Shown in pieces: positions 45,299 through 64,000 of a stretch of 64,000 nucleotides of DNA. The DNA comes from Methylopila sp. Yamaguchi (GTDB lineage Bacteria; Pseudomonadota; Alphaproteobacteria; Rhizobiales; Methylopilaceae): positions 124,001-188,000 of the forward strand of contig NZ_BAUX01000004.1 of assembly GCF_002897035.1 (NCBI RefSeq), read 5' to 3'. Numbering within the stretch: the first letter of the stretch is position 1; the number at the start of each line of letters is the position of its first letter. Below the pieces are notes generated by a model. That model was not told where the DNA came from and ran no database searches. It saw nothing but the letters and a program-made list of their open reading frames with translations. A program made the translations under genes and the position numbers.

Positions 45299-45399
45299 CG
45301 GCGCGCAGCAGCGCTCGTCAGTTCCGCCAAACGGCCCTTAGGCAAGGCCGCCCGCCAGCGTCGTGAGACGTCAGCCGTCCCTTAGAAGGAGCCCCTCTC

Positions 45400-45885: not shown

Positions 45886-45944
45886 TCTGCGCGGCGCCGC
45901 CTATGGCGGGCCGCTCTCACGCGACCTGAAAGGCGCTACTCCCA

Positions 45945-46379
45945 ATGAAGCTGTCCGCCATCAAGATCGACGCCGCGAAGCTCGAAGAGGGCGCCTGGGT
46001 CGGGGACATCCCCGAGCTCGAAGGTGTCCGCTTCAAGGTCCGCGGCATTGGGAACACCGACTACCGCCGGCTGCAGAACAAGCTGATCCTGGCCGTCCCG
46101 CGGAAGAACCGCCGCAACGGCCTGAGCGTCGAGGATCAGACGCGCATCGAGAGCCGGTGCATCATCGACACCATCCTGCTCGACTGGGACGGCATCGAGG
46201 GCGACGACGGCAACCCGCTGGCGTTCAGCAAGGAAGCCGCGACCGACCTCATCGCGGACCCGGACTTCGTGGCCCTGCGCGGGGGCATCCTCTACGCGGC
46301 GTCGATCGTGGCCGAAGAGAACGGCGACGACGAAGAGGCTGTGGAGGGAAACTCCGAGACTGCCTCCGCTGGCACCTGA
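45945..46379 (+). CDS. Tail assembly chaperone, short (G-like) product
   Basis: 144 residues ending in an acidic stretch (NGDDEEAVEGNSETASAG). The N-terminal part LSAIKIDAAKLEEGAWVGDI and NTDYRRLQNKLILAVPRKNR is typical of long-tail phage chaperones. This is the product of normal termination at 46379; a slippery site lies 27 nt before the stop. Confidence 0.82.
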   Translation: MKLSAIKIDAAKLEEGAWVGDIPELEGVRFKVRGIGNTDYRRLQNKLILAVPRKNRRNGLSVEDQTRIESRCIIDTILLDWDGIEGDDGNPLAFSKEAATDLIADPDFVALRGGILYAASIVAEENGDDEEAVEGNSETASAGT

Positions 46380-46774
46380 AGTGGTCCGGCGAAGGCAAGG
46401 CCATCGCGAAACTTGAGAAGAAGGGCCGGCCGCTCCCGGCCGACTACCTCAACAAGCCCGATCTGTGGCCGGAAAGCGCGTTCTTCTTCGACGCGTTCTT
46501 CCGGCTGAGCCCGAGCCGCTCGATCGGGATGGGGGAGGGCCGCATTCCGTTCGAGGCGATCGACCGGTTTGCCATCCGCAGCGGCATCGCGACGACCCAC
46601 GAGTTCGACCGGTTCGAGCGCATGATCCGGGCGATGGACGACGAGTTCCTCGAGCGGCGGAAGCCGAAGGGCAAGGACGACATCGGCGGCGCAGTGTCGA
46701 TCAAGGACGGGGCGGCGATCCGCGACCTACTGACCAAAATCGCGGAGAAGATGGAGGGCCCCGCCGATTCCTAA
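45945..46774 (+). CDS. Tail assembly chaperone, -1 frameshift (GT-like) product
   Basis: Decoding GGGAAAC at 46346-46352 with a -1 slip joins the first 136 codons to LRDCLRWHLKWSGEGKAIAK...LLTKIAEKMEGPADS, about 276 residues in all. The downstream frame has good coding character, carries no start of its own near the junction and ends just before the moron gene. In lambda and relatives the short and long forms occur in a fixed ratio and load the tape measure protein. Confidence 0.82.
46346..46352 (+). promoter_or_regulatory. -1 programmed frameshift slippery heptamer
   Basis: G GGA AAC in the zero frame, exactly X XXY YYZ. After slippage GGG AAA is re-paired and the next codon is CTC at 46352. 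GC-rich sequence follows and could form a stimulatory structure. Confidence 0.85.
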
Positions 46775-46819
46775 AATGGTCGCAGCAACGCCTTTCATTT
46801 TCTTGGCGTTTGGTAGCGG

Positions 46820-47146
46820 CTAGAAAGTACGGTATCGCGGATCCTTAAGATCAGGCCGGGGAACGATGTAACCGTTCTGAGGCTCGGGGTGAGTGGCTTG
46901 CGAAGGCGTGTAATCTTCGGGGGACACCAGAGCCATGCGGACATCGTTCGCACTGATTTCGATCGACTGCAGCTGCCCAGAGATCTTGGATAGCCACCCT
47001 AGTATTGCGCTGATGCCGATAGTTAGAGTGGAGAGTCCCATAGAAACTATCGCGATTCCTTCATGAATTGCGCCCTGCGCAGTTAGCAAAATCAGGGCCC
47101 CTGCTACCCATCCTAGGATTCCGACGATCATTAAAAACACGCTCAA
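46820..47146 (-). CDS. Membrane-protein moron in the tail operon
   Basis: 108 residues, TTG start at 47146 seven nt after AAGGGGG. Three hydrophobic helices (VFLMIVGILGWVAGALILLT, GIAIVSMGLSTLTIGI, ISAILGWLSKI region) and a polar Pro-rich tail. It is AT-richer than its neighbours and points against the late transcript between the chaperone and tape measure genes. Likely expressed from the lysogen; superinfection exclusion is a reasonable guess, not evidence. Confidence 0.7.
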   Translation of the reverse strand: MSVFLMIVGILGWVAGALILLTAQGAIHEGIAIVSMGLSTLTIGISAILGWLSKISGQLQSIEISANDVRMALVSPEDYTPSQATHPEPQNGYIVPRPDLKDPRYRTF

Positions 47147-47379
47147 GTCGCATCCCCCTTATGATCAGAAAAATACGTCATATCGTGTAAAATATAGTGC
47201 TGTCGACTGATGCACGAAACTAAAATTGAATAATGTTGCTCTAATCAATTCAGTGGGCCGGTGCTGAAGCGGCGGCAAAATTTAGAGCTATGACCTGAAC
47301 ATCGATGCGCCCGCGAGCAGGTGGTGGCGATGGCCGCCATGCTGCGTGAGGCGTCAAGATTCCACAACCGGATAGCACC
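47147..47379 (-). promoter_or_regulatory. AT-rich promoter region of the moron
   Basis: 233 bp, markedly AT-rich from 47150 to 47250. On the minus strand TATATTTTACACG near 47185-47197 offers a -10-like TATATT; the -35 is weak. The right half (47260-47379) returns to phage GC and leads to the tape measure gene. Confidence 0.4.
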
Positions 47380-50300
47380 ATGTCGATGTCCCTCACGGCC
47401 ATCCGCGAGTTGACCGTGCGTGGGCGCTCGGTCGGTCTGGACAAGCTCCGGGCAGACATGGATGCCGTCAAGTCGGCACACTTGGGACTCGCAAAGGCGG
47501 CTGATCAGTCGGGGGCGGCGACCGACGTCTCGACCCGTAAGCAGGAGGCTTCGCAGCGCGCGTGGGCGAGCTCCCAGGCTCGCGTTGATGGCGTCGCAAA
47601 AGCTTACCTGCGCTTCGAACAGGACCTGAACCGCACAATCAAGGCGATGGACGTTGGCGCTGTGAGCGCGGACGCCGCAGCAAAGAACATTGAGCGGATG
47701 CAGCGCGCGCTGGAAACGGCCGGCGCCGCGACCAACTCTCCGCTGGATCAGGCGCATGTACAGGTCCACGCCTCCCTTAATCGCGAACTCGGCCTGATCC
47801 TCAACACCACGAAGGCGGCGTCCGACTCGGGAGCCGCCTTTGAGCGCGAACTTGTGCGGATGGAGACCGCCGCATCCCAGTTGCGATCCGAACTAAACCC
47901 TCTCGCGGCTGCTCAGGCCAAGCTGACCGCCGAGATTGCCGATTACCGCACCATGGCGAGCATGGGCGTCATCACGACCGACGAGCTGGCGGCAGCTGCG
48001 GGGCGCGCCCGGCAAAAGTTCGACGAGATGGCTGCGGGGGTGCAGAAGGCCCCGACGGTTCAGTCGCGCATCGACAACATGGTGGGCGTCCGGTCCGATT
48101 TCGGTGGCGCGCAGCGCGGGGAAGACGTCCAGGCTTACGGCACGCAGCTCGACCAGCTGCGCGCGCGCTTTTCCCCTTTGTTCGCAGCGCAGGAGCGGTA
48201 TCGAAGCGATCTCGACGAGATAAATCGCGCCCATCGGGTCGGCGCCATTTCCGACGGCGAGAGGGCCGCCGCACTCGCGCGGACCAAGAGCGCGTTCGCG
48301 GAACAGATCGGCGTCCTCAATGGGACGACGGCAGCGGCCCGTCAGGCGGGGGCTGCATTGGCCGAAACCGCGCGGGAGGCGCAGCGAGCGGCTTCCGCCC
48401 AGGCGTCCTATCGATCTGGAGGTTGGGATCGCCTCGGGGCGATGGGCGGACAAAACCTCGCCAACATCGAAGCTTCCCGGCGCATCTCGAGCATGGGCAA
48501 GACGGCGACCGACGCGTCCAAAGGTGTCGGGCTGCTCGGGCATCAGTGGCAGAACCTGTCGTTCCAAGTGAACGACGGCGTGACGATGCTGATGTCGGGG
48601 TCGAGCATCCTGCAGGTCATCGCGACACAGTCCGGGCAGACCTTCCAGATCCTGCAGTCCGCCCCCGGCGGGGCGATGAAGGCGCTGAAGGAGGTGGCTG
48701 CATCGGTGTGGGCGATGGTGACCCCGCTGACTGTCTCCGGCGCCGCGGCGGTCGCGTTCGGCGTCTACGCGGCCTATGCGTTCGATCGAGCGAGCACCTC
48801 CGCCAAGCAGCTTGAGCAGTCGCTTCAGGGGCTCGGGCGCCTGACCGGAACGACGGTCGCGGAAGCTGAGGCCGCCGCCCAGCGGGCGGCCGCGGCAGGG
48901 AACGTCTCGGTACGCGTCGCTCGCGAGCGCGTCGCCGCTCTCATGGCGACCGGCAACGTTGGCCCGCAGCTTGCAGAGCAGCTGTCCGGGGACATCGTTG
49001 AAGCCTTCGCGGCGGTTTCCCACCAGGATGTCGCGGCGGCAGGGGAAGAGATCACGCGGGCGTTCGCCAACTCGGCGAAGGGCGCGCAGGAGCTGAACGA
49101 GAAGCTCGCCTTCCTCGACGATCGGTCTCTCCAGACCATTCAGCGGCTGGACCGCATGGGCGATCGGACGGGCGCCGCCGCGGAGATGTTCCGTCAGTTC
49201 TCTTCCGCGATGGCGGAGCCGACCAACAAACTGCGCGAGCAGAGCACGGTGTGGGACACCGTCAAGAAGAACATCGATGACGCGACGGACGCCTATGGCA
49301 GGTGGCTGGCAGGGATTGCTCAGCAGCCGTCCGAAGCGGATGACCGCCGGATGATCGACGCCGCGCGGGGGAGGATGCAGTACCGCCGCGACAACCCGAT
49401 CATGGGTTGGTTCAGCGGCGGCGCCGGCGGCAATGATCTGGATCAGCAGACGATCCGCGACGCCGAGGAGCGCATCCGGAAGCGCCAGGCCGATCTCGAG
49501 AAGAACCTTCAGGACGCGGCCAATCAGAAGGCGATTGAGGCCGGCGGGATCGCACGGGGGATAGTTAGCGGGCCCTCCGACTACCAGGACCTTCTGGAAA
49601 AGCAGGCCAAGCTGGCGGCCTCCATCAGTGATCCGGCCATCGCGCGCGGCGCGGCCGACCTGAACGTCAACAGGGAGGCTCTGGCCCGCGTCACCGCCGC
49701 GATCGAAAGCTATCTGCCGCCCGCCGAGAAGGCGCGGCGGCTTCGGGAGCTGGACCTCGCCGCCATCAACGCGCGCACGCCCGCTCAGCGCGCGGAGATC
49801 GAGGCTGCGCGTGCTCGTGTCCAGGTCGCTGGAGATCTCGAGCGCGCGTTCGACGGCGAGGCCGAGGCGCGGGCCGCGGCCGCCCGGGTGATGGAAGACG
49901 CGGCGAAGGCCGATCGAGACTACGCGGCAGGGCAGAACGAGGCGTCGCGCCAGCGCTTGGCCGCCGCGGAGCTTGAGGCCGAGTCGATCGGGCAATCCGC
50001 TCAGGAGAATGACCGCCTCCGCACGGTGATGGAATTGACCAACGAGGCGCGGCAGCGCGCGTTCGAGCTGACGGGCGACTACAACCGCGTCTCCGCCGAG
50101 ACGACCGAGAGCATCCGCCGCGAGGCCGACGAGCTCGCGCGGCTCGCGCAGGTCCGGCGGCAGGCGAACCTCGCGCAGAGCATCAGCGACGACCGTCGCC
50201 GCCTGTTCATGACGGACGGCGACGCCAACATCGATCGCCAGCTGACGGATGCCGGGCTGCTGCACAACGGCGCGCCGACGGAAGCCGGCCGGCAGGCGAT

Positions 50301-52050
50301 CGAGATCGACGGCGTGCGGGTCGCGGCCGCGGACTACTTTCGCCAGCAGCTCGAGATCAACGACGCGCTGCGCGAGATGAAGGAGGTCGGCAAGGACGCT
50401 TGGTCCACGCTCGGCGACAGCCTCCGTTCGGGCGAGGGGATCGGCAAATCCTTCGCGGCCGCTGGTCGCCGGCTGCTCGACGACGCGTCGAAGAAGGCTT
50501 GGGACAACCTCTACGACCAAGCCTTCTCGATGGTCGGTGACAGCCTAGGCCTGAAGGGGGTGTTCGGCGGGAAGCGAGACGGCTCCTCCGCCGCCTCGGC
50601 GCTGTTCGTCACTACCGTCGGCGCAACCGCGCCAGGTGTCGGCGGCCTCCTCGGCCTCGGCGCCGGCGGCGATGTCACGAAGGCCCCGCTCGCGGCGATC
50701 ACCGGCGCCGCGACGAACGACAACGGCGTCAACGCGCGGGTGGCGCAGGCCTTCGACGCCGGCGGTTGGCTGAAATACGCGAACCAGAGCGCGACCCGGA
50801 ACCAGCCGCTCGACCCGAAGCTCGTAAACGCCTTCTCCTTCCTGCCCCAGAAGGGCATCCAGATGGAGGTCTTCTCCGGCGGACAAGCGGGCATTGGCTC
50901 AGGCGGGCCGCGGGTCGGCTCGACGCGCCACGACCACGGCAACGCCGCGGACGTGTTCTTCTCGCAGAACGGCCGGCGGTTGGACTGGAACAACCCGGCG
51001 GACGTGCCGGTCTACCAGGACATCGTGCGGCAGGCGCGCGCGAACGGCGTGACCGGCTTCGGCGCCGGCCCCGGCTACATGCAGCCGGGCAGCATGCACG
51101 TCGGCTTTGGCTCGCCCGGCGTCTGGGGCGCGGGCGGCCGCGGGGCGAACGCTCCGGGCTGGTTGCGCGAGGCCTACAGCACGCCGGCGCAGGCGACGCT
51201 CACCGCCGGCGGCGCGGCGATGCCCGGCGCGGCTGCTGCGAACGACAACCTCGCCACTCTGGCGCAGACCGCCGGCACAGCGAACGACGGGCTCGGGACG
51301 CTCGGCAACAGCTTCACCCAGTTCGCAAACACGACCATCAGCCCGGAGGGCGTCGCCGCCGACGCGTCGAAGCTCGGCGCCTCGACCAACCTGCTCGCCA
51401 CGTCCGCCGAGGGCGCGGCGAACACGTTCAGCACTGGATTCACTGGCGCGCTCGGCTCGATCGTCCAGGGGGCCGGCCAGATCGGGCAGGGCTTCCTCGG
51501 GATGTTCGGCTCGGTGCTCAACACGATCCTCGGCGGCATCGGGTCCGCCGGCGGCGGGGGAGGTGGCGGCATCGGTGGGATTCTCGGCGTGGTCGGTTCG
51601 ATCTTCGGCTTCGACGAGGGCGGCTACACCGGCCACGGCGGGAAGCATGAGCCGGCTGGCGTCGTCCACCGCGGCGAATACGTCTTCGACGCGGCCAGCA
51701 CGAGCCGGATCGGTGTCGGGGCGCTGGAGGCGTTGCGGAACGGCATGCCGGGCTTCGCGGACGGCGGCTACGTTGGGAACGACAACTACGACCTCGCGAA
51801 CGACAACGGGTGGAGCGTCCTCGGCTCCGTTCCGTCCGCTCCGCCTCCGCCCGCGCCGTCCTATGGCGGCTCGGAGACGGTCGTGCGGCTCGAACTCGAT
51901 AACAAGCTGCTGCAGGCGAAGATGGTCCAGACGGCGAAGCCAGTCGCGAAGAGCGAGAGCGCCCGGGCCGGGGCGAAGGCGGTCCAGGTCTCGAACCAGT
52001 CCTACCCCTCGACGCAGGCCTTCTACCGCAAGCACGGGCACACGAACTGA
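47380..52050 (+). CDS. Tail tape measure protein with embedded M15-like peptidase
   Basis: 1556 residues, which predicts a tail of roughly 230 nm if about 1.5 angstrom per residue holds. Long helical, Ala/Arg/Gln-rich stretches, a hydrophobic segment near residues 440-470, and a Gly-rich C-terminal end. At about 1180-1240 [20 protein letters not shown] and [12 protein letters not shown] give HxxxxAxD...H, the metal-binding set of M15/LAS peptidases that open peptidoglycan during DNA entry. The C-terminus has the [20 protein letters not shown] motif common to tape measures. ATG 47380. Confidence 0.92.
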
Positions 52051-52790
52051 TGGCCGGCCGCGACGTCTATCCGATCGACCTGTTCGAGTGCGGGAAGATG
52101 CAGTGCGACGTTGTCGGCGGGTCGATCGAGGGGCTCCGATCGCTCGCGAACGACACGCCGGACCGCTTCGGCGTGGGCCGCGGCGGGCTGTGGAAGTTGA
52201 CCTACGCCGACATCTGGCTGGAGACGGAGCAGGAGTACCGCGCATGGCGGGCGCTGCGGGCCCGCCAACGCAACGGCTCCGGCGTCATGGTCGTGCCGGT
52301 GCTCCGTCGCCTGTGGTTCGCCCAGGCGCTTGGCGTGCCGGCCGATCAGATCCCGCACAGCGACGGCACGTTCTTCAGCGACGGCGCAGGCTACGCCGGA
52401 CAGACCATCGGCGCGTCGCTGACCGCGGCGGCCGCCCACGGCGCGACCGAAATTCAGGTGCGGATCCTGGGGGCGCAGCCGCTGCAAGGCGCCGAACCCT
52501 TCACGATCGTCCATCCGGTCGCCGAAGCGCGGCTTTACGAGGTCGCCGGGGTTAACGCGATGGCTGACGTCGTCGTGAGCGGGCAGGTCGTCGGCTATGA
52601 CTACACGATCGAGATCAACCCGCCGCTGCGCGAGCCCACCGCAGCCGGGACAGAGCTCGATTTCGACAACCCACGCTGCCTCATGCGCCTCGCTGACCCG
52701 AACGGCATGAGCTACGAGGAGGACATCGTCTCCTTCTCGTCCGTGACCTTCCTCGAGGAGCTGCGCGTCCTCTCGGGCGCGACGGTATGA
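52050..52790 (+). CDS. Minor tail protein (gpM-like distal tail)
   Basis: 246 residues. The first part WKLTYADIWLETEQEYRAWR-like (KLTYADIWLETEQEYRAW) and the C-terminal NPRCLMRLADPNGMSYEEDI are seen in distal-tail proteins after the tape measure in siphophages. Overlaps the tape measure stop (TGATG) and the next gene (ATGA). Confidence 0.65.
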   Translation: MAGRDVYPIDLFECGKMQCDVVGGSIEGLRSLANDTPDRFGVGRGGLWKLTYADIWLETEQEYRAWRALRARQRNGSGVMVVPVLRRLWFAQALGVPADQIPHSDGTFFSDGAGYAGQTIGASLTAAAAHGATEIQVRILGAQPLQGAEPFTIVHPVAEARLYEVAGVNAMADVVVSGQVVGYDYTIEINPPLREPTAAGTELDFDNPRCLMRLADPNGMSYEEDIVSFSSVTFLEELRVLSGATV

Positions 52791-53416
52791 GCGCGCTGCC
52801 CCCGCCGGAGCCGGCTCCGATCGAGGCGTATGCGAACGTGAGCGGCTTCGATGTGGTGGCGAGGATCGTCTGGACCGACGGCTCGATCAGCCGGCTGACG
52901 TCCGCGAACATCGGGGTCTATCTGCCGGCCGACGGCGTCGAGGATGTGGACGGCGCCTACTACACCTGCTTCCCCGGCCTCGGGCCGATCCCGGCGCTCA
53001 AGCAGACCATCAACGGGGTCTCCGACGAGGTCTCGTTCACCCTGCCAGGCGTGCCGAGCGACATCGCCGAGATGTTCGACGTCGAGGCCGATCTCGCCGA
53101 GGGCGCCGAGGTGTTCATCGGCCGTGTCACCTACGACCACAAGCTCCAGATGATCGGCGGCGCGACCTGGATCTGGAACGGCGAGGCCGGCGAGTTCGGC
53201 GCGCGCGACAGCGGCGGATCGATGGAGGACGGCGAGCTGAGCAGCGGGAGCCAGACGCTGTCCCTGAAGGTCGGCTCTCAGCAGATCACCCGGTCGAGCT
53301 CGCAGTTGTACTCGTGGAGCGACGCTCAGCACCGGCAGCTGCACCCGACGGACGCCTTCTTCTCGGAAATCGGCGGGCTCGAGCAGGGCAGCGTCAAGGT
53401 CTTCCCGAAGTTCTAG
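52787..53416 (+). CDS. Minor tail protein (gpL-like position)
   Basis: 209 residues, beta-rich, starts with a Pro-rich linker. EVFIGRVTYDHKLQMIGGAT and LKVGSQQITRSSSQLYSWSD resemble baseplate/tip proteins of rhizobial phages. Function by synteny only: the L/gp13 slot between M-like and K-like genes. The next ATG directly follows its TAG. Confidence 0.6.
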   Translation: MSALPPPEPAPIEAYANVSGFDVVARIVWTDGSISRLTSANIGVYLPADGVEDVDGAYYTCFPGLGPIPALKQTINGVSDEVSFTLPGVPSDIAEMFDVEADLAEGAEVFIGRVTYDHKLQMIGGATWIWNGEAGEFGARDSGGSMEDGELSSGSQTLSLKVGSQQITRSSSQLYSWSDAQHRQLHPTDAFFSEIGGLEQGSVKVFPKF

Positions 53417-53854
53417 ATGCCCATGCCGATCACCGAAGAACGCCTCGACGAGTATCTCGACGAGGTGAGCGAGGACGTGCGCTTTTGGCAGGACAGCCAC
53501 TGCCTGCTGTTCCTCGCGCGCTGGGTCGCCGTGGTCCGCCCGGACTTCGCGCTTGAACCGCTACTGGGCCGCGTCTCCGGCCCCGTGTCCGCCTATCGCT
53601 TCCTTCAGCGAGAGGGCGGGGTAGACGCCTATGTGAGCTCGGAGGCGGCGCGAGCCGGCCTCGCTCTGACGACTGCGGCCGCAGCGCGCCTCGGCGCCAT
53701 CGGTCTGGTGCGCGTGCCGCGCGCCAAGGGCGGTGACCTGACCTTTGGCTGCATTCGAACCGCCTCGCGCTGGTCCATCCGGACCCGCGAAGGCCTCGTT
53801 GAACTCGACGCCTCGCGCATCCGCGTGCAGCCGCATCTCGTGTGGGACGTCTGA
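53417..53854 (+). CDS. DUF6950-like tail tip protein
   Basis: 145 residues. A Cys in FWQDSHCLLFLARWVAVVRP occupies the N-terminal helix as in NlpC/P60-like folds, SAYRFLQREGGVDAYV follows, and IGLVRVPRAKGGDLTFGCIR sits where the His region would be. DUF6950 proteins occupy the gpK slot. Peptidoglycan hydrolase activity is doubtful, because a clear catalytic His is not seen. Confidence 0.65.
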   Translation: MPMPITEERLDEYLDEVSEDVRFWQDSHCLLFLARWVAVVRPDFALEPLLGRVSGPVSAYRFLQREGGVDAYVSSEAARAGLALTTAAAARLGAIGLVRVPRAKGGDLTFGCIRTASRWSIRTREGLVELDASRIRVQPHLVWDV

Positions 53855-53857
53855 CAG

Positions 53858-56524
53858 ATGCCCCAGGCGATTGGAGCGGCCGTCCTCGCGACGATCGGCG
53901 TGTCATCGGCGACCGCCGGCGCCGCGTTCCTCGGCACGACGTTGGCCGGCTTCGTCGGCTCGACCATCCTCTCGGGCGTCCTTCTAGGCGCGCAGCTGCT
54001 GCTCGCCGAGAAGCCGAAAGTGCCGGAGCCCGCCGACGGCAAGCAGTCGATGAAGCAGGCGCTGCCGCCTGCGATCTACGGCTACGGGCGCGACCGCAAC
54101 GGCGGCGCCTATGCGGCCTACAAGAGCAAGGGGGCGAAGTCCTACGACGTCATCGCTTTCCACCAGGGCGAGATCGACGGCTACGAGACCTTCTACCTGC
54201 ACGACGACATCGTGACCTTCGACGCCGGGCAGGTCGACGGCCCGGTGAACTACGGGAAGGGCCGCTACCGCGGCTATATCCCGCCCGATCTCATCGTTCA
54301 GATCTTCTGGCGCAGGGGTCTCCGGACCGAGACGCCGTACAGCCAGATGGTCTCGGCGCTGCCGAACGCTTGGACGCCCGACCATCGTGGCGACACCATC
54401 GCCTCGGCGCTTCTGCTGACGGACACCCCGTCCGAGAAGCAGTACACGAAGCGCCTGCCGTTCGGCCTCCCGCGGCTCAGCGTCGTCGCTCGCTGGCAGC
54501 GCTGCTGGGATCCGCGCGATCCGACCCAGATCGAGACGGACCCGACGACGTGGAAGTGGACGCGCAACCCGTTCGTCTGCTTGCTCAACTTCTACTGCCA
54601 CTGCCCCGCCGGCTATGGCCGCCCCGTGGGCCGGGTCTACGCGCCGGTCGCCGCCTACTGGCGCGCGGCGATGGACAAGTGCGACGAGGAGGTGCTGCGC
54701 GGCGACGGGACGGTTGAGCCCCGCTACACGATCGGCGGCCACTTCGACACGAAGACCGCCCGCAGCGGCGTGGTCGGCGCGATGCTGCGCTCGTGCGACG
54801 GGTGGCTCGCGGAGCGCGGCGACGGCGCGATCGTCGTCTACGCCGGCTGGTACTATGAGCCCGCGGTGGTCATCGAAGACCTCCACATCTACGACATCGA
54901 CATCCGGCGCGGCCGGATGGCCGACGAGCGCATCACGCAGCTCAACGTCCAGATCAACTCGCCGGACCACAACTACGGCAAGGTCGCGGCGGACCCTTGG
55001 GTCAACCAAGCGGAGATCGACGCCGGCGCGCAGCCGGTCGCGCGCGACGTCGAGGCGGAGTGGTGCCAGTCCTGGACGCAGGGACGGCGGCTCGCCCAGA
55101 TCGAGTTCGACAAGGCGCGCTGCAAGATCCGCGGGACGATGGTCTTGCGCCCCTATGGCGAGAACCTGCGCGGCCGACGATTCTTCATGCTGAACTACGG
55201 GCGCCGCGCGTCGACCCGGATGGTGCCGTGCGAGATCACCGATTTCCACGACGAGATGTTCACGAACGGCTCGTATCGGGTGGAGTTCCAGAGCGTGGAT
55301 CCGGCGCGCTACGACTGGGACACGAGCAAGGAAGGCCGGCGCCCGGCGATCCCGGACAACAGCGACGACGCGGATGACCTTCCGAAGCCGCCGCAGCCGA
55401 CGGTCGCGGTTATACGCGAGACCATCGGCGGGACGTTGGTCGCCAAGATCAGCGCGACCTCTCCTCCCGTCGAGGGATGGCCGAACCTCTCGCTGACCGG
55501 CCGCTTCCGCAAGGTTGGGGCGAGCACTTGGCGGAATATGACCGCGCCCGACGACGCCGTACTGCAGGTCCTGAGCGATGCGGTCGAGGACGGCAACTAC
55601 GAAGTCCAGACCGCTTACGTTGGCGGTGGCGGCGACGACGGAGATTGGTCTCCCACCGCTACCATCACGATCATCTCAGACAACGTTGCGCCCGGCACGC
55701 CGGAGAACCTGAAGGTCAGTTCGCTCTCGGGCTCGACGGTCGAGATCTCGCAGCGCGGCAAGACGAACGACACGCACACTCGGTTCTTGCGCCTCCGTGG
55801 CGGCGTGCCCGGCACCCCCGTCGCGAACATGCCGACCTTGGACGTTCAGGCGGGCCTTGCGGGCGACGTGCGCACGTTCGCGGAGACGCTGACGCCGCAG
55901 GTGAAGCACTACTACGGCGACGCCCTGAACGGTTCGGGCATCGCCTCTGTCGCTCCGGCTGGTCCGCTAGTGGTGACCATCCCGGGCCAGACCTTCAGCG
56001 ACGCGTTCGCCTACTCCGACGGTGCGCTGACGACGGTCGCTCCTGCGAACTGGACCCGGATCGGCGGCACGGCCGGATCGGCTCAGGTCGTGAGCGGCAA
56101 GGTTCAGGCGGCGATCTCCGGAACCACGCTTTACGCGGCGCCCGACACCTTCGCGCCGAACATGTGGGTGTCCGCGGAATGGCTTGCGGCGGCCGCCTCC
56201 ACCAACGGCATCGTCGCGATCGTCGTCGACAGCTCGAATTACATCTGGGCGCGCTACCGCGGCACGATGTGGGAGCTGATGAAGCGGGTCGCCGGCGGAT
56301 CGAACGTCACGATCGCCAGTCAGTCAGCGGCGATTCCGGCGGTTGGATCCGAGGTCCGACTTGAGAAGGCGGGCGCCGCGCTCACCCTGAAAGTTGCGGG
56401 AGCGACGATCGTCACCGGCTCGCTTGGGAGCGATCTGCTTGCCGCCTCGCGGCCTGGGTTCGTCATCACCACGGCCGTCGCCGGGGACTTCCTGGACAAC
56501 TTCAAGGCGGGGATCTCGTCATGA
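53858..56524 (+). CDS. Host-specificity/tip attachment protein (gpJ-like)
   Basis: 888 residues. An Ala/Gly-rich hydrophobic N-terminus (about 1-50) is followed by the J-like core with QALPPAIYGYGRDRNGGAYA, YETFYLHDDIVTFDAG and MVPCEITDFHDEMFTNGSYR, then fibronectin-like segments from about 500 (WRNMTAPDDAVLQVLSDA) and a C-terminal beta-sandwich. It forms the tail tip and binds the receptor. Overlaps the next gene by ATGA. Confidence 0.85.
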   Translation: MPQAIGAAVLATIGVSSATAGAAFLGTTLAGFVGSTILSGVLLGAQLLLAEKPKVPEPADGKQSMKQALPPAIYGYGRDRNGGAYAAYKSKGAKSYDVIAFHQGEIDGYETFYLHDDIVTFDAGQVDGPVNYGKGRYRGYIPPDLIVQIFWRRGLRTETPYSQMVSALPNAWTPDHRGDTIASALLLTDTPSEKQYTKRLPFGLPRLSVVARWQRCWDPRDPTQIETDPTTWKWTRNPFVCLLNFYCHCPAGYGRPVGRVYAPVAAYWRAAMDKCDEEVLRGDGTVEPRYTIGGHFDTKTARSGVVGAMLRSCDGWLAERGDGAIVVYAGWYYEPAVVIEDLHIYDIDIRRGRMADERITQLNVQINSPDHNYGKVAADPWVNQAEIDAGAQPVARDVEAEWCQSWTQGRRLAQIEFDKARCKIRGTMVLRPYGENLRGRRFFMLNYGRRASTRMVPCEITDFHDEMFTNGSYRVEFQSVDPARYDWDTSKEGRRPAIPDNSDDADDLPKPPQPTVAVIRETIGGTLVAKISATSPPVEGWPNLSLTGRFRKVGASTWRNMTAPDDAVLQVLSDAVEDGNYEVQTAYVGGGGDDGDWSPTATITIISDNVAPGTPENLKVSSLSGSTVEISQRGKTNDTHTRFLRLRGGVPGTPVANMPTLDVQAGLAGDVRTFAETLTPQVKHYYGDALNGSGIASVAPAGPLVVTIPGQTFSDAFAYSDGALTTVAPANWTRIGGTAGSAQVVSGKVQAAISGTTLYAAPDTFAPNMWVSAEWLAAAASTNGIVAIVVDSSNYIWARYRGTMWELMKRVAGGSNVTIASQSAAIPAVGSEVRLEKAGAALTLKVAGATIVTGSLGSDLLAASRPGFVITTAVAGDFLDNFKAGISS

Positions 56525-56934
56525 TGGGGGAGGTGCGCGACTGGACGGACGGGGTCGACGAGGTCCAGAAGGCCACGCAGTCCGTCGGTAGCGCGGTCGC
56601 GGGGACTGCGGCCATGGCGGCCGACGCCAAAGCTGAGGCTAAGGCTGCTGCGAGCGCCACGCCGAGGATCGATTACGGCGTCTCCTCCGTCACGTTCAAC
56701 ACGGTCGTCAGCGTGTCCTTGGCAGCGCGCTCGCTGAACGTCGCAGTCCCCGCGGCCAAGGTCGCCGACCGCGTGCTGCTCTGGCCGGAGGGTGCGGTGC
56801 CCGCCGGTTACGTCATCATCTCCACCGCGCGTGTCACCACCGCGGGCCAGGTGCCCGTGCAGATCCTGTTCCCAGCGATCGTCGCCATCTCGAGCGTCAC
56901 GCTGTCGTTCCGGATGATCGCCTTCCGCGACTGA
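56521..56934 (+). CDS. Small tail-tip accessory protein
   Basis: 137 residues. An Ala-rich helical N-terminal half (about 15-50) leads to a beta-rich domain (SVTFNTVVSVSLAARSLNVA; VLLWPEGAVPAGYVIISTAR). It resembles fibre-head adaptors by position, between J-like and fibre genes. No family recognised. Followed by a strong terminator. Confidence 0.65.
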   Translation: MMGEVRDWTDGVDEVQKATQSVGSAVAGTAAMAADAKAEAKAAASATPRIDYGVSSVTFNTVVSVSLAARSLNVAVPAAKVADRVLLWPEGAVPAGYVIISTARVTTAGQVPVQILFPAIVAISSVTLSFRMIAFRD

Positions 56935-56958
56935 ACTAACCCCCATTCCGACCTGACC

Positions 56959-56988
56959 AAGCCGCCCGGCACGCCGTGGCGGCTTTTT
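56959..56988 (+). terminator. Rho-independent terminator
   Basis: AAGCCGCC (56959-56966) pairs with GGCGGCTT (56978-56985), followed by TTT and GCG. It separates the tail-tip genes from the fibre gene, so the fibre block may have read-through control or its own promoter. Confidence 0.75.
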
Positions 56989-57004
56989 GCGTGGAGCCCG
57001 CCTC

Positions 57005-60000
57005 ATGGCGTCGATCATCGACAGCTTCCAGCTGACGTTTCGGGACTTTGAGACCCCGAACCTGCCTTCGTCCGGGCCGCGGAAGGTGTGGAAGGCCGAC
57101 GCTCGCGCGCTCGGCGGCGTAATCGAGCAGGCCGTCAATCTGATCGCGAACGGCGTCGTCATCGGGAGTGCCACGCTCTATGCGACCAAGGCCGCGATGG
57201 ACGCGGACTACGCGACGGGCGCGGTGGGTCGGCTCGCGCTCGTCTACGCCGACAGCACGGCGGCGAACAACAAGATCTGGGTGAAGGGCGCATCGGCCTG
57301 GGTCGATGCCGGCATGACGCTCGCGGCTTCCGCCGTGGCGCAGCTCGCGGACTTCTCCGCCCGCATCGCGGCGCTTGAGGCCATCGCCGGCCTGTTTCCC
57401 TACGCTGTCGCAGATGCGGCAGGCACCGTCGATGCGCTGATCCTCAACCCGACGCCAGCACTGCCGTCGCTGAAGGTCGGGTCGTTCGTCTACTTCAGGG
57501 TCAACGGCCCGAACACCGGCGCTGTCACGATCAACGTGTCCGGCCTCGGCGTGAAGGACCTTCGCGGCATGACGGGCGGAAGCCTCGTCGCCAACGACCT
57601 GCAGGCAGGGCGGGTCTACGCCGCCCGGTACACCGGCACGCGATGGGACCTCGTCACCGGCGCACTTGGCGCCTATAGCGCCGCTTCGGTTGGTCTTTCT
57701 CAGCCCAGGCGGATCACGCTCGATCCTGCAGCCACTGGCGACCTGATCATCGGGACGACCTCTGGGCCGGCAATCACGCCGACGGATCTCCTCTCGAACA
57801 ACGGCCTGCTGATCTATGTGCCGGCGGCGGTGAACACCGGGGCGGTGCTCGCGCGGATCAACGGCGACACGACGGACCGTCCGGTCCGCGACATGAACAA
57901 CGGCAGTCTGGTCGCCGGCGATTTCCAGGTCGGCAAACTGTACCTGTTCGTGGCGGACGGCGGGGCGCGCTGGCGCTGCTTGAACCCCGGAGCCGGCGTC
58001 GTCCGCGCAAGCGATATCCCAGCCGCCGTCGCCGCCGCCGTCGCCGCGCTACTCGGTGGCGCCTCCACGTCCGGCGACACGCTGAAGAAGCTTGAGGACC
58101 GGATCGCGTCCGAGGTCGTGACGCGCGGCCTGAACGACTCCGGGCTGCAGGGACAGATCACGCCGCTTGCGAACAAGCTCGCGGGCATCGCTACCGCCGC
58201 CACCGCGAACTCCACTGACGCACAGCTGCGGGACCGCGGCACGCACACGGGCGTCCAGGAGATCTCGACGGTATCCGGACTACAGGGCGCGCTAGACGGC
58301 AAGGCCGCTGCTGCTCACAGCCACGGGGCGGCGACTACGAATGCTGCGGGTTTCATGGCTTCGGCGGACAAGGCCAAGCTGGACGCCGTCGAGGCCGGCG
58401 CCGACGTCACCGACGCCCAGAACGTCGCGGCTGCGATCGCAAATTCCCCTCCCAAGACCTCGCCGGCCGACAGCGACATCCTCGCGCTGCTCGACGCCGC
58501 CACCGGCTTCGTTATGGGCAGGATTTCGTGGGCGAGCCTGCGGGCGCGGATCGGCGAAGCGTTTGACACCCGGACGAACCTCCTCGCCGGGTCGGTCAAG
58601 GCGAACCCGGCCGCCGGCGACCGCTTCCCGATCCTCGACAGCCAGAACTCGAGCGCGATCGGCTACTTCACGTGGACGGGCTTGCTGGCCGCGATCCAGA
58701 GTGGCCTCAACTTGGTCTTCCAGGGCCGCAAAACGGTTCTCGACCAGACCACGGCCGCCTTTACGACCGAGAAGGACACCTTGTACTCCGCCGCTGCGGG
58801 GAACGCCACCGCAGCGCTCGCGGCCATCACACCGCTGAGTGACATGAAGGGGAGAGCCTTCGCCCGTCCCGGCGACGCGCCTGCGCTGTTCTCGAACCAG
58901 ACGGCCGGCAAGGCTGTTGCACTCCCGCCGCCGGCATTCGGCGTGAAGGAGACGACGACCGCGCTCGGGTCCTACTGGCGGATCCGGCCGGAGGACATCG
59001 ACGATCAGACCGGCTGGCGGGACCTCGTCCAGGCGACCGACTTCGAGATCGAGGACGGGCGCACCTACCTCGTCTCCACCCGCTACGTCCGGCTCGCCAA
59101 TCCCTCGACCGCGCAGCCGGTGAAGCTCCGCTGGTTCAACCTGAATGGCAACGGCAATGCGATCAGCGACGTCGATCTGAAGACCGACCCGAACCCTGTG
59201 ACCAGTCAGGGCCCGCGCTCGCTGTTTGCGTTCATCGGCAAGGACGGCGCGCCCATTCCAACGGGGATGACGGCGCTCGACTACACGATCGCGCCGACCG
59301 CGGTTTACGGCCGCGCCGGGACCCGCATCATCTCGAACGGCCAGTCGACCGGCGTCATCTCGCTGTTCGTGAAGGACGTCACCGACGACATCACCGGCGG
59401 TCTGGACATCACCTCGTTGATCGCGCGGGTGACCGCCGTCGAGGCCTTGGCGGGCGTCGTGCCGTTCGCCGTCGTGGATGGCAGCGGAACGGCGGACACG
59501 CTCGTCATCAACCCGACGCCGGCTCTCGCTTCTCTCAGGGTCGGCGCGCTCATCTACTTCCGGGTCCTGGCCGCGAACACCGCGTCGCCGACGCTCAACG
59601 TCTCGAACCTCGGCGCGAAGGATCTGCGGGGCCAGGGCGACACCGCGCTCACGGCCGACGATCTGCAGCCCGGACGCGTCTACAGCGCCCGTTATTCCGG
59701 GTCGCGGTGGGTGCTGATGTCCGGCGCGACCGGGCTCTACACCGCCCGCGAGCCCTCAATCGCGCAGACTCGCCGCCTTGCGCTCGCGGCGAACACCGAG
59801 GCCAACGTCATCATCGGCACGACGTCTGGCCTCCCGATCAGTGACACAGACCTGCGCAACAACAACGCCCGGCTGATCTACGTCCCGACGATCGAAAACA
59901 CCGGCCCGGTCGTCGCCCGTATCAACGGAGACACCTTTGATCGGTCGGTGACCGACATGAACGGCGCCGCGCTCCGCGCCGGCGATTTTCAGGTCGGTAA

Positions 60001-61861
60001 GCGCTACGAACTGATCGCGGACGGCCCGCGCTACTGCTGCCTGAACCCCGGCGCCGGCACTCCGCGTCAGGCGGACATCCTCAGCAACGCGGCACTCCTC
60101 GACGCGCTGTTCCGGAATCGCATCCTCGCGCGCCCCGCCGAAGAGCCGCACACTTGGACCTACCAGCCGACGATCGCTCCGGCGACTGCCGGCAAGGTAC
60201 TCGACGGCGGCCCGAACTTCGTGATCGCGCCGACCGTGCGGGGCAGGGGTCTCGCGATCACCGGCGCCAACGGCGCTGGGCCCATCGGGCTCGACTACAT
60301 CGTCCCGGGCCGCGTCTACCGCGTCCGCATGGGCGTGATCCGCCTCGTTGACGACGTAGCGTTCAACCGCGCGAACCTTCGCGTGCGGGCCTTCGACAAA
60401 GACCTCGTCGGCATCAGCACCCTGCAGCTCGGCGAGACGCACATCATCAGCGTCGCGGACGGCTTCCAGGAGTACGCGACCACGATCTCGACCGACGCGA
60501 CCAAGGCTGAGGTCGCGCTGCCCGCGGGCACGGTCGCTGTCCGACGCTACGCCGCGAACGGCCAGGGCGTCACGAACGGCGTGCTCGCGGTCCTCTACGT
60601 CGCGGTCGACGACATCACGGACGGCGGCTTCGCCTCCGCCACGCCCGTCGCCGACCCCGCCAATCTCGACTTCTTCACGCGCGACGCCGGCGGAGCCCCC
60701 CGCACGCTGTCCTCAGCCGACCTCGAAGCATGGATCAAGCAAATGGCTGCTGGCCCTGACCTTTACCCCCACGACATCGTCAAGGAGACGATCGGGACCA
60801 CGGGGAGGGTCATCATCCCCAGCGCCCCCGAGGTCTACAGCGTCTTCATCCAGAATCTGTCCGAGGACTCTGACGCCGAGATCGGCATCGTTGACGGCGA
60901 CAAGTCGATCGCCGCGATGTCGGACGCGAAGTGGAGGATCGGCCGGCTCGGCTACATCGAGGCGGAGAGCCCGAACGACTTCGTGCCGGGCGCCTTCAGC
61001 ATCATCTCCAACAAGGATGGCGCGCGGTTCTCCTGCCACTTCACGACGACGACGCCGGACAACCCGATCTTTACGGCCGGCGCGGCGCAGGCGGCGGAAG
61101 AGCACCTCGCCCGCTACTCCGGCAGCATGACGACGGCGCAGCAGACCGCGATCCGCAACCGCTTCCGGACGCTCTGGCTCCTTGGCATCATCCAGAAGGC
61201 GCGGGCGGCCGGCGCCACACTGCTCACGGCGCGCGCCCCGAACCTCACCGACAGCCTCCTCGACTGGGCGCGCCCCGGCGCCATCGCGAGCGCGTTCGGC
61301 TCCCCGACGCATGTGCCGTGGTCGAACTGGGCCTTCGACGGGACCGACGACTACATCGAGACCAATGTCGGCTTCTCGGCCGGCGTCACCCCCGGCGACC
61401 ACACGGGCTATGTCGAGATCGGGCCGGAGACCCACACCTCCGCGCAGATCGCGGCCGGGTCGCAGCGCCTGCGGTTCTCCCTGAACCACCTTAACGGCAC
61501 CCGCATGCGCATCACCGACTTCTCCGCCAACATGGCCGGGTCGGGGCAAGCCTACGCGGACATCTACTACAACCCCGAGCACACGGCGGGCGGCGGCGGC
61601 CACGTCTTCGCCAGTCGCAACGACGCGATCAACACGATCGCGACTCACAAGAAAGCCGACTTCGTCGTCTCGTCGCCTCTCGATTACACCGACGCCTACA
61701 CCTTCAAGCTCGGCGCCGGCTCCTCGACCAACAACGCGGCCGTGTCGTTCTGGCCGGGCCCGGTCTACGGCGGCGGTCTTCTGCCCTTCCTCACCAAGAC
61801 GCAGCGCGACGGCCTCGTGGACGCCGACGCCGCCTTCGTCGCAGCGCTTGCGGGGGCCTGA
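57005..61861 (+). CDS. Large tail fibre protein with internal duplication
   Basis: 1618 residues from ATG 57005. The N-terminal SIIDSFQLTFRDFETPNLPS and KVWKADARALGGVIEQAVNL form the virion-attachment part. Two copies of a roughly 208-residue beta module lie at about 130-338 and 818-1025 (both with NPTPAL.SL.VG, LNPGAG). A shaft with DKAKLDAVEAGADVTDAQNV (a fibre-trimerisation signature) lies between them. The C-terminal about 250 residues contain NWAFDGTDDYIETNVGF, a lectin-like receptor-binding candidate. Only 3 nt separate it from the FAD protein gene. Confidence 0.85.
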   Translation: MASIIDSFQLTFRDFETPNLPSSGPRKVWKADARALGGVIEQAVNLIANGVVIGSATLYATKAAMDADYATGAVGRLALVYADSTAANNKIWVKGASAWVDAGMTLAASAVAQLADFSARIAALEAIAGLFPYAVADAAGTVDALILNPTPALPSLKVGSFVYFRVNGPNTGAVTINVSGLGVKDLRGMTGGSLVANDLQAGRVYAARYTGTRWDLVTGALGAYSAASVGLSQPRRITLDPAATGDLIIGTTSGPAITPTDLLSNNGLLIYVPAAVNTGAVLARINGDTTDRPVRDMNNGSLVAGDFQVGKLYLFVADGGARWRCLNPGAGVVRASDIPAAVAAAVAALLGGASTSGDTLKKLEDRIASEVVTRGLNDSGLQGQITPLANKLAGIATAATANSTDAQLRDRGTHTGVQEISTVSGLQGALDGKAAAAHSHGAATTNAAGFMASADKAKLDAVEAGADVTDAQNVAAAIANSPPKTSPADSDILALLDAATGFVMGRISWASLRARIGEAFDTRTNLLAGSVKANPAAGDRFPILDSQNSSAIGYFTWTGLLAAIQSGLNLVFQGRKTVLDQTTAAFTTEKDTLYSAAAGNATAALAAITPLSDMKGRAFARPGDAPALFSNQTAGKAVALPPPAFGVKETTTALGSYWRIRPEDIDDQTGWRDLVQATDFEIEDGRTYLVSTRYVRLANPSTAQPVKLRWFNLNGNGNAISDVDLKTDPNPVTSQGPRSLFAFIGKDGAPIPTGMTALDYTIAPTAVYGRAGTRIISNGQSTGVISLFVKDVTDDITGGLDITSLIARVTAVEALAGVVPFAVVDGSGTADTLVINPTPALASLRVGALIYFRVLAANTASPTLNVSNLGAKDLRGQGDTALTADDLQPGRVYSARYSGSRWVLMSGATGLYTAREPSIAQTRRLALAANTEANVIIGTTSGLPISDTDLRNNNARLIYVPTIENTGPVVARINGDTFDRSVTDMNGAALRAGDFQVGKRYELIADGPRYCCLNPGAGTPRQADILSNAALLDALFRNRILARPAEEPHTWTYQPTIAPATAGKVLDGGPNFVIAPTVRGRGLAITGANGAGPIGLDYIVPGRVYRVRMGVIRLVDDVAFNRANLRVRAFDKDLVGISTLQLGETHIISVADGFQEYATTISTDATKAEVALPAGTVAVRRYAANGQGVTNGVLAVLYVAVDDITDGGFASATPVADPANLDFFTRDAGGAPRTLSSADLEAWIKQMAAGPDLYPHDIVKETIGTTGRVIIPSAPEVYSVFIQNLSEDSDAEIGIVDGDKSIAAMSDAKWRIGRLGYIEAESPNDFVPGAFSIISNKDGARFSCHFTTTTPDNPIFTAGAAQAAEEHLARYSGSMTTAQQTAIRNRFRTLWLLGIIQKARAAGATLLTARAPNLTDSLLDWARPGAIASAFGSPTHVPWSNWAFDGTDDYIETNVGFSAGVTPGDHTGYVEIGPETHTSAQIAAGSQRLRFSLNHLNGTRMRITDFSANMAGSGQAYADIYYNPEHTAGGGGHVFASRNDAINTIATHKKADFVVSSPLDYTDAYTFKLGAGSSTNNAAVSFWPGPVYGGGLLPFLTKTQRDGLVDADAAFVAALAGA
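57394..60080 (+). repeat. Intragenic duplication in the fibre gene (copies 57394-58018 and 59458-60080)
   Basis: Each copy encodes VDG/ADA-G-T-x-D-x-L-x-INPTPAL, a KDLRG turn, DLQAGRVYAARYTG or DLQPGRVYSARYSG, an INGDT turn and a CLNPGAG end. The copies have diverged, so the duplication is not recent. Confidence 0.8.
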
Positions 61862-61864
61862 TCC

Positions 61865-63445
61865 ATGGCGACCATCACAGTCGACGCCTTCATCTGCGGC
61901 GGACAGATCGCGGGCCTCATCGCCGGCCGCACGATCGCGGAGAAGGGCTACGAGGTCTACGTCCAGGAGTGGACGAACGAACTCGGCGGCATGTGCGTCG
62001 CCGGCGTGCTTCAGGTGGACTACTCCGGCCGACCGCCAGCGGGGCGCGCCAACAAGTTCTGGCTCGACGTGAAGGATTACGCCGAGAGCCAGGGCGCCGT
62101 CTGGGACGGGACGAACGCGCCCGCGGGCCTGCACCCCGCGAACGGCCTGCCGCGGAACGTCTCTCCGCTCTGGGTGCTCCACGTCATCAACACGACGCTG
62201 ATCAACCATCCGAACATCACGGTCGTGAAGTCGGTTGACATCACGGGCGTCGACAAGGACCCGGTGACGAAGCGGGTCAAGAGCGTCAGCCTGAGCAACG
62301 GCGACACCGTCCTCTGCAAGCAGTGGACGGACTACTCCTACGAGAGCTGGCTTGCATCGCATGACGACGTCGGCATTCCCCATGAGTACGGCCGCATCGA
62401 CCGTCTGCAGTGGGACGAGGAGAACTCGGGCAACGCCGTCTTCGCGGTCACGGACAACCTGAAGGTGGACTTCCCGATTCGCCTCCCGAACGGCAACCTC
62501 AACCGCTCGCGCACCCATCGCCCGAGCCTGCCGGACGGCTACGGCTCGCTCACGACCATGGGCTTCAACTGGCGCTTCATGATGTCGACCAAGGCGAACC
62601 GCCGCCCTTGGTCGACGCTTGAGGCGCCGCTCCTCGCCCTGGGCTGGCGGATGGAGAACTACACCGACTTCATCAGCGAGCTGTTGCAGCGGAACGCGAC
62701 GAACATCGGGCACATCGCGTCGAGCCATCCGTGCGACACGCGCCCCGAAGACGACTCTCTCCACACGACCAACCCGACGAACATGAACGAGATCCTGCTG
62801 GCGCGGAAATACCCGCTGCTGCGGACGCCGAACCAAGCCCGCTGGTTCAAGGATCAGATGTTCCTCGCGACCGCGGGCAAGATCTTCGCGGCCTACTCAA
62901 GCCCGCTGACCAGCGCCCAGCTCAAAACGAACCTCAACAAGTACGCGCTGCCGGGGGAGGTCTATCAGACGAACTACTGGCGCGTCCCCGGCTGGCCGCC
63001 GCAGCCCTACATCCGGTCCTGCCGTCGTGCCCGCGGCATCTACACCGCGACGTGGAACAATTTTCAGAGGATCCCGCCGGACCCGACTTGCCACGCCGGC
63101 TACAACGCCGACAGCCACCAGCACTTCTGGTACTGGGACCCGGAGACGGCGATCTCTTGGAAGGAAGGCGGCCCGGAGCCCCACCAGACCAGCACGTGGC
63201 TCGTTCCGTGGCGGTTCTTCAAGCCGCACAAGCAGCACTGCGTGAACGGTCTGCTCGGCTGGAACGGCGCCGAGAGCTACATCATGTCGACGGATCTCCG
63301 GATCGAGACGATCAAGATGATGCAGGGCGAGGTCGCCGGTATCGCCATCGCACTCGCCCTCGATCTCGGCATCGACGTGGTCGACGTCTCCCACGCCGCT
63401 CTCAAGCCGCGCCTTCAGGCCGCCGGCTTCAACATGTCGCTCTGA
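61865..63445 (+). CDS. FAD-dependent oxidoreductase-like protein downstream of the tail fibre
   Basis: 526 residues, complete. The N-terminus DAFICGGQIAGLIAGRTIAE (8-27) with Glu35 in VYVQEW and ELGGMCVAG (39-47) is the FAD_oxidored-type dinucleotide site, though the central Gly of GxGxxG is Gln14. The C-terminal MMQGEVAGIAIALALDLGID is the family's second FAD contact. A middle region of about 350 residues is Trp/His/Cys-rich (HQHFWYWDPETAISW). ATG 61865 is 3 nt after the fibre stop and 10 nt before the next gene, so it is part of the late operon. A bacterial-type redox enzyme in a fibre cassette is very unusual. Confidence 0.75.
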   Translation: MATITVDAFICGGQIAGLIAGRTIAEKGYEVYVQEWTNELGGMCVAGVLQVDYSGRPPAGRANKFWLDVKDYAESQGAVWDGTNAPAGLHPANGLPRNVSPLWVLHVINTTLINHPNITVVKSVDITGVDKDPVTKRVKSVSLSNGDTVLCKQWTDYSYESWLASHDDVGIPHEYGRIDRLQWDEENSGNAVFAVTDNLKVDFPIRLPNGNLNRSRTHRPSLPDGYGSLTTMGFNWRFMMSTKANRRPWSTLEAPLLALGWRMENYTDFISELLQRNATNIGHIASSHPCDTRPEDDSLHTTNPTNMNEILLARKYPLLRTPNQARWFKDQMFLATAGKIFAAYSSPLTSAQLKTNLNKYALPGEVYQTNYWRVPGWPPQPYIRSCRRARGIYTATWNNFQRIPPDPTCHAGYNADSHQHFWYWDPETAISWKEGGPEPHQTSTWLVPWRFFKPHKQHCVNGLLGWNGAESYIMSTDLRIETIKMMQGEVAGIAIALALDLGIDVVDVSHAALKPRLQAAGFNMSL

Positions 63446-63455
63446 GGAGGCCCGG

Positions 63456-64000
63456 ATGAAAGTCTTCAACCCCGGCCTCGGCGGCTCTGGCGGCGGCTCT
63501 TCCTCGGACATCTCGCGCGAGGAACTGGAGGCGGCGGCGAACGGCCAGGCCTTCCTCCATGACGGCGTCTTCGTCAGCCACATCCCGCGCGGCGTCTATC
63601 CGATCTTTATCACGAACCCGTCCGGCAAGCAGGGCGCGCCACGCTACGTGTCGGCGCCCGCGACGCAAATGGGGCCGATCTGGTTCCCAGACGCGGACTA
63701 CGCGCCCCAGCGGGTCAACGGCAACGCGGCCGGGGATCAGTGGATCCGCATGTCGCCGTATCGACGCTACGTCGTGACCGACATCGACATCGTGAACGTG
63801 GTCGGCACGCCTGGGGCGCTGACGTTTGGCGTCTACTCGAACACCGGCGGCGCAGGCGGTGGCGGCATTGAGGTGCTGCCGACGACGACGACGCTTTCCG
63901 GCATGACATCGGACCTACGCAGCCGGAAGACGTTCGCCAACCTCAATGGCGGTTTGGGCATCGATCTTGAGGCGGACCACCTCTACCTCAACGTGGTCAC
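63456..64000 (+). CDS. Late-region protein, C-terminus beyond window
   Basis: At least 181 residues from ATG 63456, with GAGGAGG upstream. Gly/Ser-rich N-terminus (GLGGSGGGSSSD), then a beta-rich domain (AFLHDGVFVSHIPRGVYPIF; RRYVVTDIDIVNVVGTPGAL). It looks like a virion structural protein, perhaps a fibre accessory or receptor-binding head. Unrecognised, runs off the edge. Confidence 0.6.
   Translation, partial: MKVFNPGLGGSGGGSSSDISREELEAAANGQAFLHDGVFVSHIPRGVYPIFITNPSGKQGAPRYVSAPATQMGPIWFPDADYAPQRVNGNAAGDQWIRMSPYRRYVVTDIDIVNVVGTPGALTFGVYSNTGGAGGGGIEVLPTTTTLSGMTSDLRSRKTFANLNGGLGIDLEADHLYLNVV

Follow-up and report, generated by a model that had tools for sequence, protein, structure and literature searches.

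The enzymes commonly known from phage fibres are hydrolases, lyases and esterases, and the virion-associated depolymerases are typically hydrolases and lyases. Tail fibres bearing SGNH esterases are described, in the accessible part of the source, for Klebsiella prophages and for E. coli phage G7C (PMC13123978), and the accessible text of a review on depolymerases never uses the words oxidoreductase, oxidase, flavin or FAD (PMC5380687). An FAD-dependent oxidoreductase is listed for two T4-like Rhizobiaceae phages in the accessible part of another report (PMC10783043). In GenBank, FAD dependent oxidoreductase is the annotation given to two of the three genes from Rhizobium phages considered below, so the presence of FAD domains in phages is already on record. 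A literature search by titles and abstract openings, with most subscription papers outside its reach, listed no study of flavoproteins carried on fibres; nor did the literature so searched bring up the fibre link reported here, the recurrence, or the relation between split and fused forms.

The window is the whole analysed stretch of 64,000 nucleotides of Methylopila sp. Yamaguchi. It contains an HK97-type siphoprophage, identified by PHROG matches to terminase, portal, protease, capsid, major tail, chaperone and tape-measure proteins together with a J-like tail protein. The same element is present in IMG/VR as contig 2791354909_000001 (39,141 bases), and its span, positioned by arithmetic from the FAD gene within that contig, covers 27889..64000 and continues beyond the window, as far as about 67029. 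Its genes on the plus strand include the terminase large subunit (37156..38868; PHROG 9, E 1.3e-120), the portal, head maturation protease and major head protein (38882..42657; PHROGs), the tail tape measure protein (47380..52050; PHROGs) and the J-like central tail fibre/tail tip protein (53858..56524; PHROGs 5616 and 31). A 137-aa gene (56521..56934, plus strand) occupies the interval between the J-like protein and the tail fibre. A tRNA-Met (CAT) gene lies at 34113-34189, within the IMG/VR prophage span, and just beyond the right end of the prophage a gene encodes 469 aa containing RTX calcium-binding repeats (L018:5302-6711, which would correspond to window positions 67301-68710).

The tail-fibre gene (57005..61861, plus strand) encodes 1618 aa from the ATG at 57005, or 1624 aa from a TTG at 56987, and matches the tail protein family PHROG 4900 in two stretches (E 2.3e-11). 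A 37-nt repeat, its copies 2061 nt apart, is present in the same gene (57961-60058); this repeat and the two PHROG 4900 stretches may reflect a duplicated module, which could account for the length of the fibre relative to its shorter counterpart in the second prophage described below.

The gene under study (61865..63445, plus strand) is a complete ORF with an ATG start, coding for 526 aa. The fibre ORF ends with TGA at 61861, three nucleotides (TCC) follow, and the ATG stands at 61865; the junction (61859..61864, plus strand) thus leaves the two ORFs in one frame, a stop and one codon apart. On the other side, ten nucleotides separate the end of the FAD ORF from the next late ORF (63456..64000 within the window, plus strand; 204 aa, extending past the window end), which has no Pfam match for its in-window part and no PHROG match. 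The first-pass annotation, which put the gene 3 nt behind a 1618-aa fibre gene and 10 nt ahead of another late gene, agrees with these coordinates. By eye, no strong ribosome-binding site was seen before the FAD gene, in contrast to the AGGAGG preceding 63456.

Searched against Pfam, the 526-aa protein has a sole match, to FAD_oxidored (PF12831), with E 2.9e-26. Residues 8-517 align to positions 2-416 of the 416-position profile, i.e. to the whole profile; with 93.2 bits against a curated cut-off of 27 bits and near-full coverage, this match is not due to chance. The earlier description as a complete FAD_oxidored-type protein is thereby confirmed, and the profile search and structure prediction proposed along with it returned the family match and an FAD/NAD-binding fold. 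NCBIfam gave no match near its curated cut-off (best E 0.0024), PHROGs none at E<=0.001, and neither the FAD protein nor the fibre contains a beta-helix, hydrolase or lyase domain at E<=0.001 in Pfam and PHROGs. The AlphaFold2 model, computed from 16 window and IMG/VR sequences, is graded fair to good (pLDDT 77.5, pTM 0.85). Foldseek retrieved 905 PDB chains at E<=1e-3, of which the best 50 are FAD/NAD-binding folds (flavocytochrome c3, HI0933-type, MnmG, Thi4 and others), flavoproteins as well as Thi4-type thiazole synthases among them. The model resembles two-dinucleotide-fold flavoproteins (GR2/fumarate-reductase-like), a predicted similarity to be read together with the short alignments of 38 of these 50 chains (just 166-262 columns) and with low query-normalised TM-scores of 0.18-0.32. 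Against viral models there were 18 matches at E<=1e-3, none of them named as fibre, and sequence searches of the PDB mostly reached the first 40-140 residues.

Next, we looked for the gene in related hosts. A search of 18 family genomes gave a homologue at E<=1e-10 in two, the genome of the window and a second one of the same genus (G013), where it again lies in a prophage. There, an 872-aa fibre is followed after 3 nt by an FAD protein 52% identical to that of the window and then by a homologue of the next late gene (55-56% identical); the 137-aa gene also has a counterpart in the same place (34% identity). An IMG/VR contig (2541046934_000006, L019) has gene sizes equal to those of the G013 prophage and was therefore counted as the same prophage. 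The fibre C-terminus (294 aa in the window, 60977..61858, plus strand), the FAD protein and the next gene, 45%, 52% and 56% identical between the two prophages, are more strongly conserved than the J-like protein (27%); the terminases share 68%. Since composition is biased and divergence high between the two prophages, dN/dS was left aside. The fibre C-terminal domain occurs in two of 13 genomes of the genus, the same two that carry the FAD gene, which in both prophages holds a conserved position in the tail module. In the G013 prophage, a GSCFA protein (PF08885), which we take to be an SGNH-like hydrolase, is encoded two genes after the FAD gene (L014:8303-9505) and represents a second candidate glycan-acting enzyme in the cassette.

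The junctions are also alike: TGA ACC ATG in G013 and TGA TCC ATG in the window, both of 3 nt and in frame. Given the shared frame, readthrough of the TGA might possibly yield a minor fibre-FAD fusion; we regard this as possible rather than probable, since in-frame spacing arises in one case out of three by chance and could stem from one ancestor.

PF12831 proteins are common enough in these bacteria to raise the question of a recently acquired host gene without phage function: a search of the host genome yields 28 matches at E<=1e-3, partial in many cases, and 19 of 101 genomes of the order have one at 1e-60. Such a chance capture is hardly credible in view of the 52% identical copy in the same place in the second prophage. 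Moreover, the third-position GC of the FAD gene (0.91) stands beside values of 0.86-0.89 in four neighbours, and the protein is 15-24% identical to 26 cellular PF12831 copies. The same trio in the second prophage rules out a host gene caught at a scar. Homologues residing mainly outside phage loci, with this copy at a recombination scar, were not seen either, the nearest homologue found being the prophage one.

The cellular proteins of the same subfamily (five of which are 21-24% identical to the window protein) appear to be exported. Seven such genes were inspected, by pattern or by eye rather than with a signal predictor: five have a twin-arginine start (L003, L057 and L070 by pattern, a pair in G013 by eye) and the other two (L053 and L069) a Sec-like stretch by eye. 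Among 14 other PF12831 loci, the twin-arginine pattern was met in two (L002 and L049), both times upstream of the likely start. These apparent signals make it probable that the subfamily works outside the cytoplasm. No signal peptide was seen by eye on the 526-aa protein; a signal-less phage protein could reach the outside on the virion. The host also contains a decayed twin-arginine PF12831 gene, in two pieces with a stop between them (L070, G000:C15:76312-77234), related to the intact tandem pair of G013 (L017).

As a query, the window protein found no match in 50,697 phage records, nor in the plasmids or genome contigs searched, sets that may omit the window's own genome. A profile search with at most three candidates scored per genome gave hits in two of 397 genomes of the order at 1e-60 and in one of 385 genomes of the class at 1e-25. 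A cellular relative from G013, used as query, found five phage records: two unannotated faecal phage scaffolds, matched partially, and Rhizobium phages RHph_Y55, RHph_N3_19 and RHph_I72. The latter three encode proteins of about 850 aa in which PF12831 makes up the C-terminal part (E 4e-44 to 1.3e-59), with FAD domains 19-22% identical to the window protein. Profile scans of IMG/VR added 17 contigs, then one and then three more, making 21 beyond the window's and G013's own.

The survey of homologues against phage fibres that had been proposed at the outset could thus be made over 24 phage records, and it revealed a recurrent architecture. In 14 of them (11 IMG/VR contigs and the three Rhizobium phages), a domain of about 280 aa precedes the FAD domain in the same chain. 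The IMG/VR members are L024-L031, L085, L089 and L090, some with a further N-terminal stretch; L029 was placed here, its sequence unopened, by a match length and identity equal to those of L027 and L028, and the contig of L028 was examined under the label L083. In three more records (L036, L037 and L039) the FAD domain follows long N-termini that look fibre-like by eye, of which that of L039 alone matches a PHROG tail fibre (E 2.6e-5). L040 is an FAD protein with a 101-aa extension, L038 fits no architecture class clearly, and L077, with a Tat-like signal at its start, is probably cellular. The remaining four contigs (L032-L035), three of about 93 kb and one of 62 kb, encode FAD proteins with a C-terminal extension, which in L033, the one scanned, is Golvesin_C; a terminase gene lies just upstream in L032.

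A PHROG scan of neighbours, chosen by hand and mostly long, found virion, packaging or ejection genes near 13 of 18 IMG/VR loci (L024, L025, L026, L027, L030, L031, L032, L035, L036, L039, L040, L085 and L090), the support being weak for L030, whose best tail match has E 1.2e-9. At the other five (L033, L034, L037, L038 and L089) the scanned neighbours included no virion gene. In the Rhizobium phages, the fused gene adjoins terminase, portal or head(-morphogenesis) genes and not fibres, which we counted against the fibre reading.

Some of these loci bring up a cargo (moron) enzyme active inside the lysogen or the infected cell, for instance altering the host's own surface, for which the place in a late operon would be incidental. 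The cellular relatives are host enzymes, the FAD proteins of L032-L035 lack a fused fibre part, and a gene for a GtrB-like glycosyltransferase, of O-antigen type, lies about 2 kb before the fused FAD protein of L089 (L089:1941-2936). We nevertheless consider this improbable: the cellular subfamily appears exported whereas the window protein shows no signal peptide, the gene shows no strong ribosome-binding site and, in two prophages, follows the fibre gene after 3 nt, and in other phages the FAD domain is fused to fibre-like parts.

The relation between the fused domain and the fibre of the window was approached with hhalign, comparing the domain of nine phage proteins (the three Rhizobium phages, L024-L027, L030 and L031) with the C-terminal 300 aa or so of the window and G013 fibres. 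The two align colinearly over 228 columns with a score of 40.3 and a probability of 65.8. Among 300 column shuffles the highest score was 22.3; reversing the query gave 16.5, and six pairs of other genes from these prophages gave 12.8-20.0; eight upstream chunks of the fibre gave 11.6-17.5, and a chunk overlapping the domain 31.0. With the three Rhizobium sequences only, the score was 30.3 and the probability 14.0. Other methods did not recover the pair: among the hmmsearch matches listed for the fused domain, down to 0.3 bits, the real fibres were absent, while the best shuffle reached 9.1 bits; with the fibre C-terminus as query, tblastn gave no hit among phage records, and a scan of IMG/VR returned the prophages of the window and of G013 and no others. 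Profile-profile comparison, in which alone it is visible, thus links the fibre C-terminus to the domain fused before FAD elsewhere, as a putative relative. L085, L089 and L090 were assigned the same domain by eye only. The structure model of the fibre C-terminus is poor (pLDDT 46.5, pTM 0.51) and Foldseek found nothing for it at E<=0.001, so that we claim no fold for it; it may be jelly-roll or LamG-like.

In L024, about 14 residues separate the domain from FAD, and it is at this place that the stop and start codons of the window fall. The two-gene pair matches the single-chain proteins of other phages, which suggests that the flavoprotein sits at the fibre end. Because the fused order, domain then FAD, equals the gene order, fibre C-terminus then FAD, this is most simply read as contact between the two window proteins. 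We judge association of the FAD protein with the virion to be likely, with good confidence. Expression together with virion proteins and a fibre association, both proposed in the first-pass annotation, gain support from the synteny in the second prophage and from the fused counterparts.

Genes for fibre-assembly chaperones of the Tfa kind often follow fibre genes, and the position directly after the fibre, with possible translational coupling, would suit one. Tfa proteins are unlike a 526-aa flavin fold, and in other phages the FAD domain is part of a longer chain; PHROGs gave no match at E<=0.001, to a fibre-assembly family or to any other. A chaperone role is very improbable.

The reading that we prefer, and hold to be about evenly balanced between true and false, is that of a virion-associated flavoprotein at the distal end of the tail fibre, probably modifying a surface molecule. 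We infer the following course, from presence in the virion through FAD binding and docking to substrate and chemistry. The FAD gene would be translated together with the fibre gene; the product would fold in the cytoplasm and, if still FAD-binding, load FAD there. It would then dock on the fibre C-terminal domain, a putative relative of the domain covalently fused to its counterparts in other phages, and be carried by the tail outside the host. During adsorption it would bind a surface molecule, with a glycan as the likeliest candidate, and probably oxidise or otherwise change it. That it acts on a surface glycan, taken by itself, is plausible, though slightly short of an even chance.

Whether such an enzyme could be active was considered with an alignment of 24 sequences, six cellular and 18 from phages (window, G013 and 16 others). 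The motifs of the window protein are G12-G-Q14-I-A-G17, E35, L40-G-G-M43 and A491-G-I-A494. The cofactor site had been described as mostly kept, with Gln replacing the central Gly of the dinucleotide motif. Glu35, LGGM and AGIA are present, as are G12 and G17. The reading of the motif needs correction: the motif reads G-x-T-x-x-G in all six cellular relatives, and Thr is found in 14 of the 16 other phage copies, so that the change here is Thr-to-Gln, confined among the 24 sequences to the window and G013 copies. The supposed Gly-to-Gln change is largely a subfamily trait, and as a sign of decay by itself it is ruled out. Twenty-one positions, a set defined with the window copy included, show the same residue in every one of the 24 sequences; they include Y159, E160, R177, E185, R237, Y382, R384, R388, Y413, D416, N461, R479 and E481. 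We predict that the window protein likely binds FAD, with fairly good confidence.

The main rival arises from the same alignment, since the window copy is the most diverged of the 18: a non-catalytic fibre tip or receptor-binding module, in which the fold is reused with or without FAD as structural cofactor. The six cellular sequences share 76 invariant positions, of which the window copy keeps 43, the fewest of all phage copies, and G013's phage copy 47. Asp162, Asp228 and Asp346 are lost in this pair, each being retained by 14 to 16 of the 16 remaining phage copies. The pair stands on a long stem of 2.3 changes per site in the tree; its union with the other phage copies is unsupported (41/36), and a single phage clade is hence not supported. 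The fusion evidence for virion location serves a passive tip equally well. We still find it unlikely, as charged and aromatic invariants (Y159, E160, R177, E185, R237, R384, R388, D416, R479 and E481) are kept together with E35 and GGM, and the 16 remaining phage copies each retain 50-66 of the 76 positions. The core of the window protein is kept, yet the protein seems specialised or partly degraded.

Should the preferred reading of a fibre-end flavoprotein hold, some phages may deliver a redox enzyme onto the host surface, and redox chemistry would be added to the ways by which phages cross or recognise bacterial surfaces. The fold recurs in phages whose FAD domains are as low as 19-20% identical to that of the window. 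A wider reading, which we offer tentatively and as somewhat less probable than not, is that phages have repeatedly equipped their fibres with a flavoenzyme of the exported type, made in one chain or split into two proteins that join at the fibre end; these redox virion enzymes would use oxygen to oxidise glycans on the host surface and might release peroxide where the phage adsorbs. The activity would be directly testable by flavin absorbance and oxygen use, and a function would be suggested for the 'hypothetical' or 'FAD dependent oxidoreductase' proteins of three sequenced Rhizobium phages.

Compared with known proteins, the window protein shares with the cellular PF12831 subfamily the full-length profile match and the 21 residues invariant in 24 sequences; it differs in lacking a visible export signal, in Gln for the motif Thr, in the loss of several Asp residues and in its place in a phage late operon. 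The proteins of about 850 aa of the Rhizobium phages likewise have a PF12831 domain encoded among virion and packaging genes, preceded by a probable relative of the window fibre C-terminus, but they are one fused chain beside terminase, portal or head genes where the window has two genes. With virion-associated depolymerases, as treated in the accessible part of PMC5380687, the locus has in common its place in a fibre gene cassette. The closest concept is that of the SGNH-esterase fibres in the accessible part of PMC13123978, where a non-depolymerising enzyme domain on the fibre alters host glycans; their chemistry is that of hydrolases, whereas the window has a predicted redox fold encoded by a separate gene.
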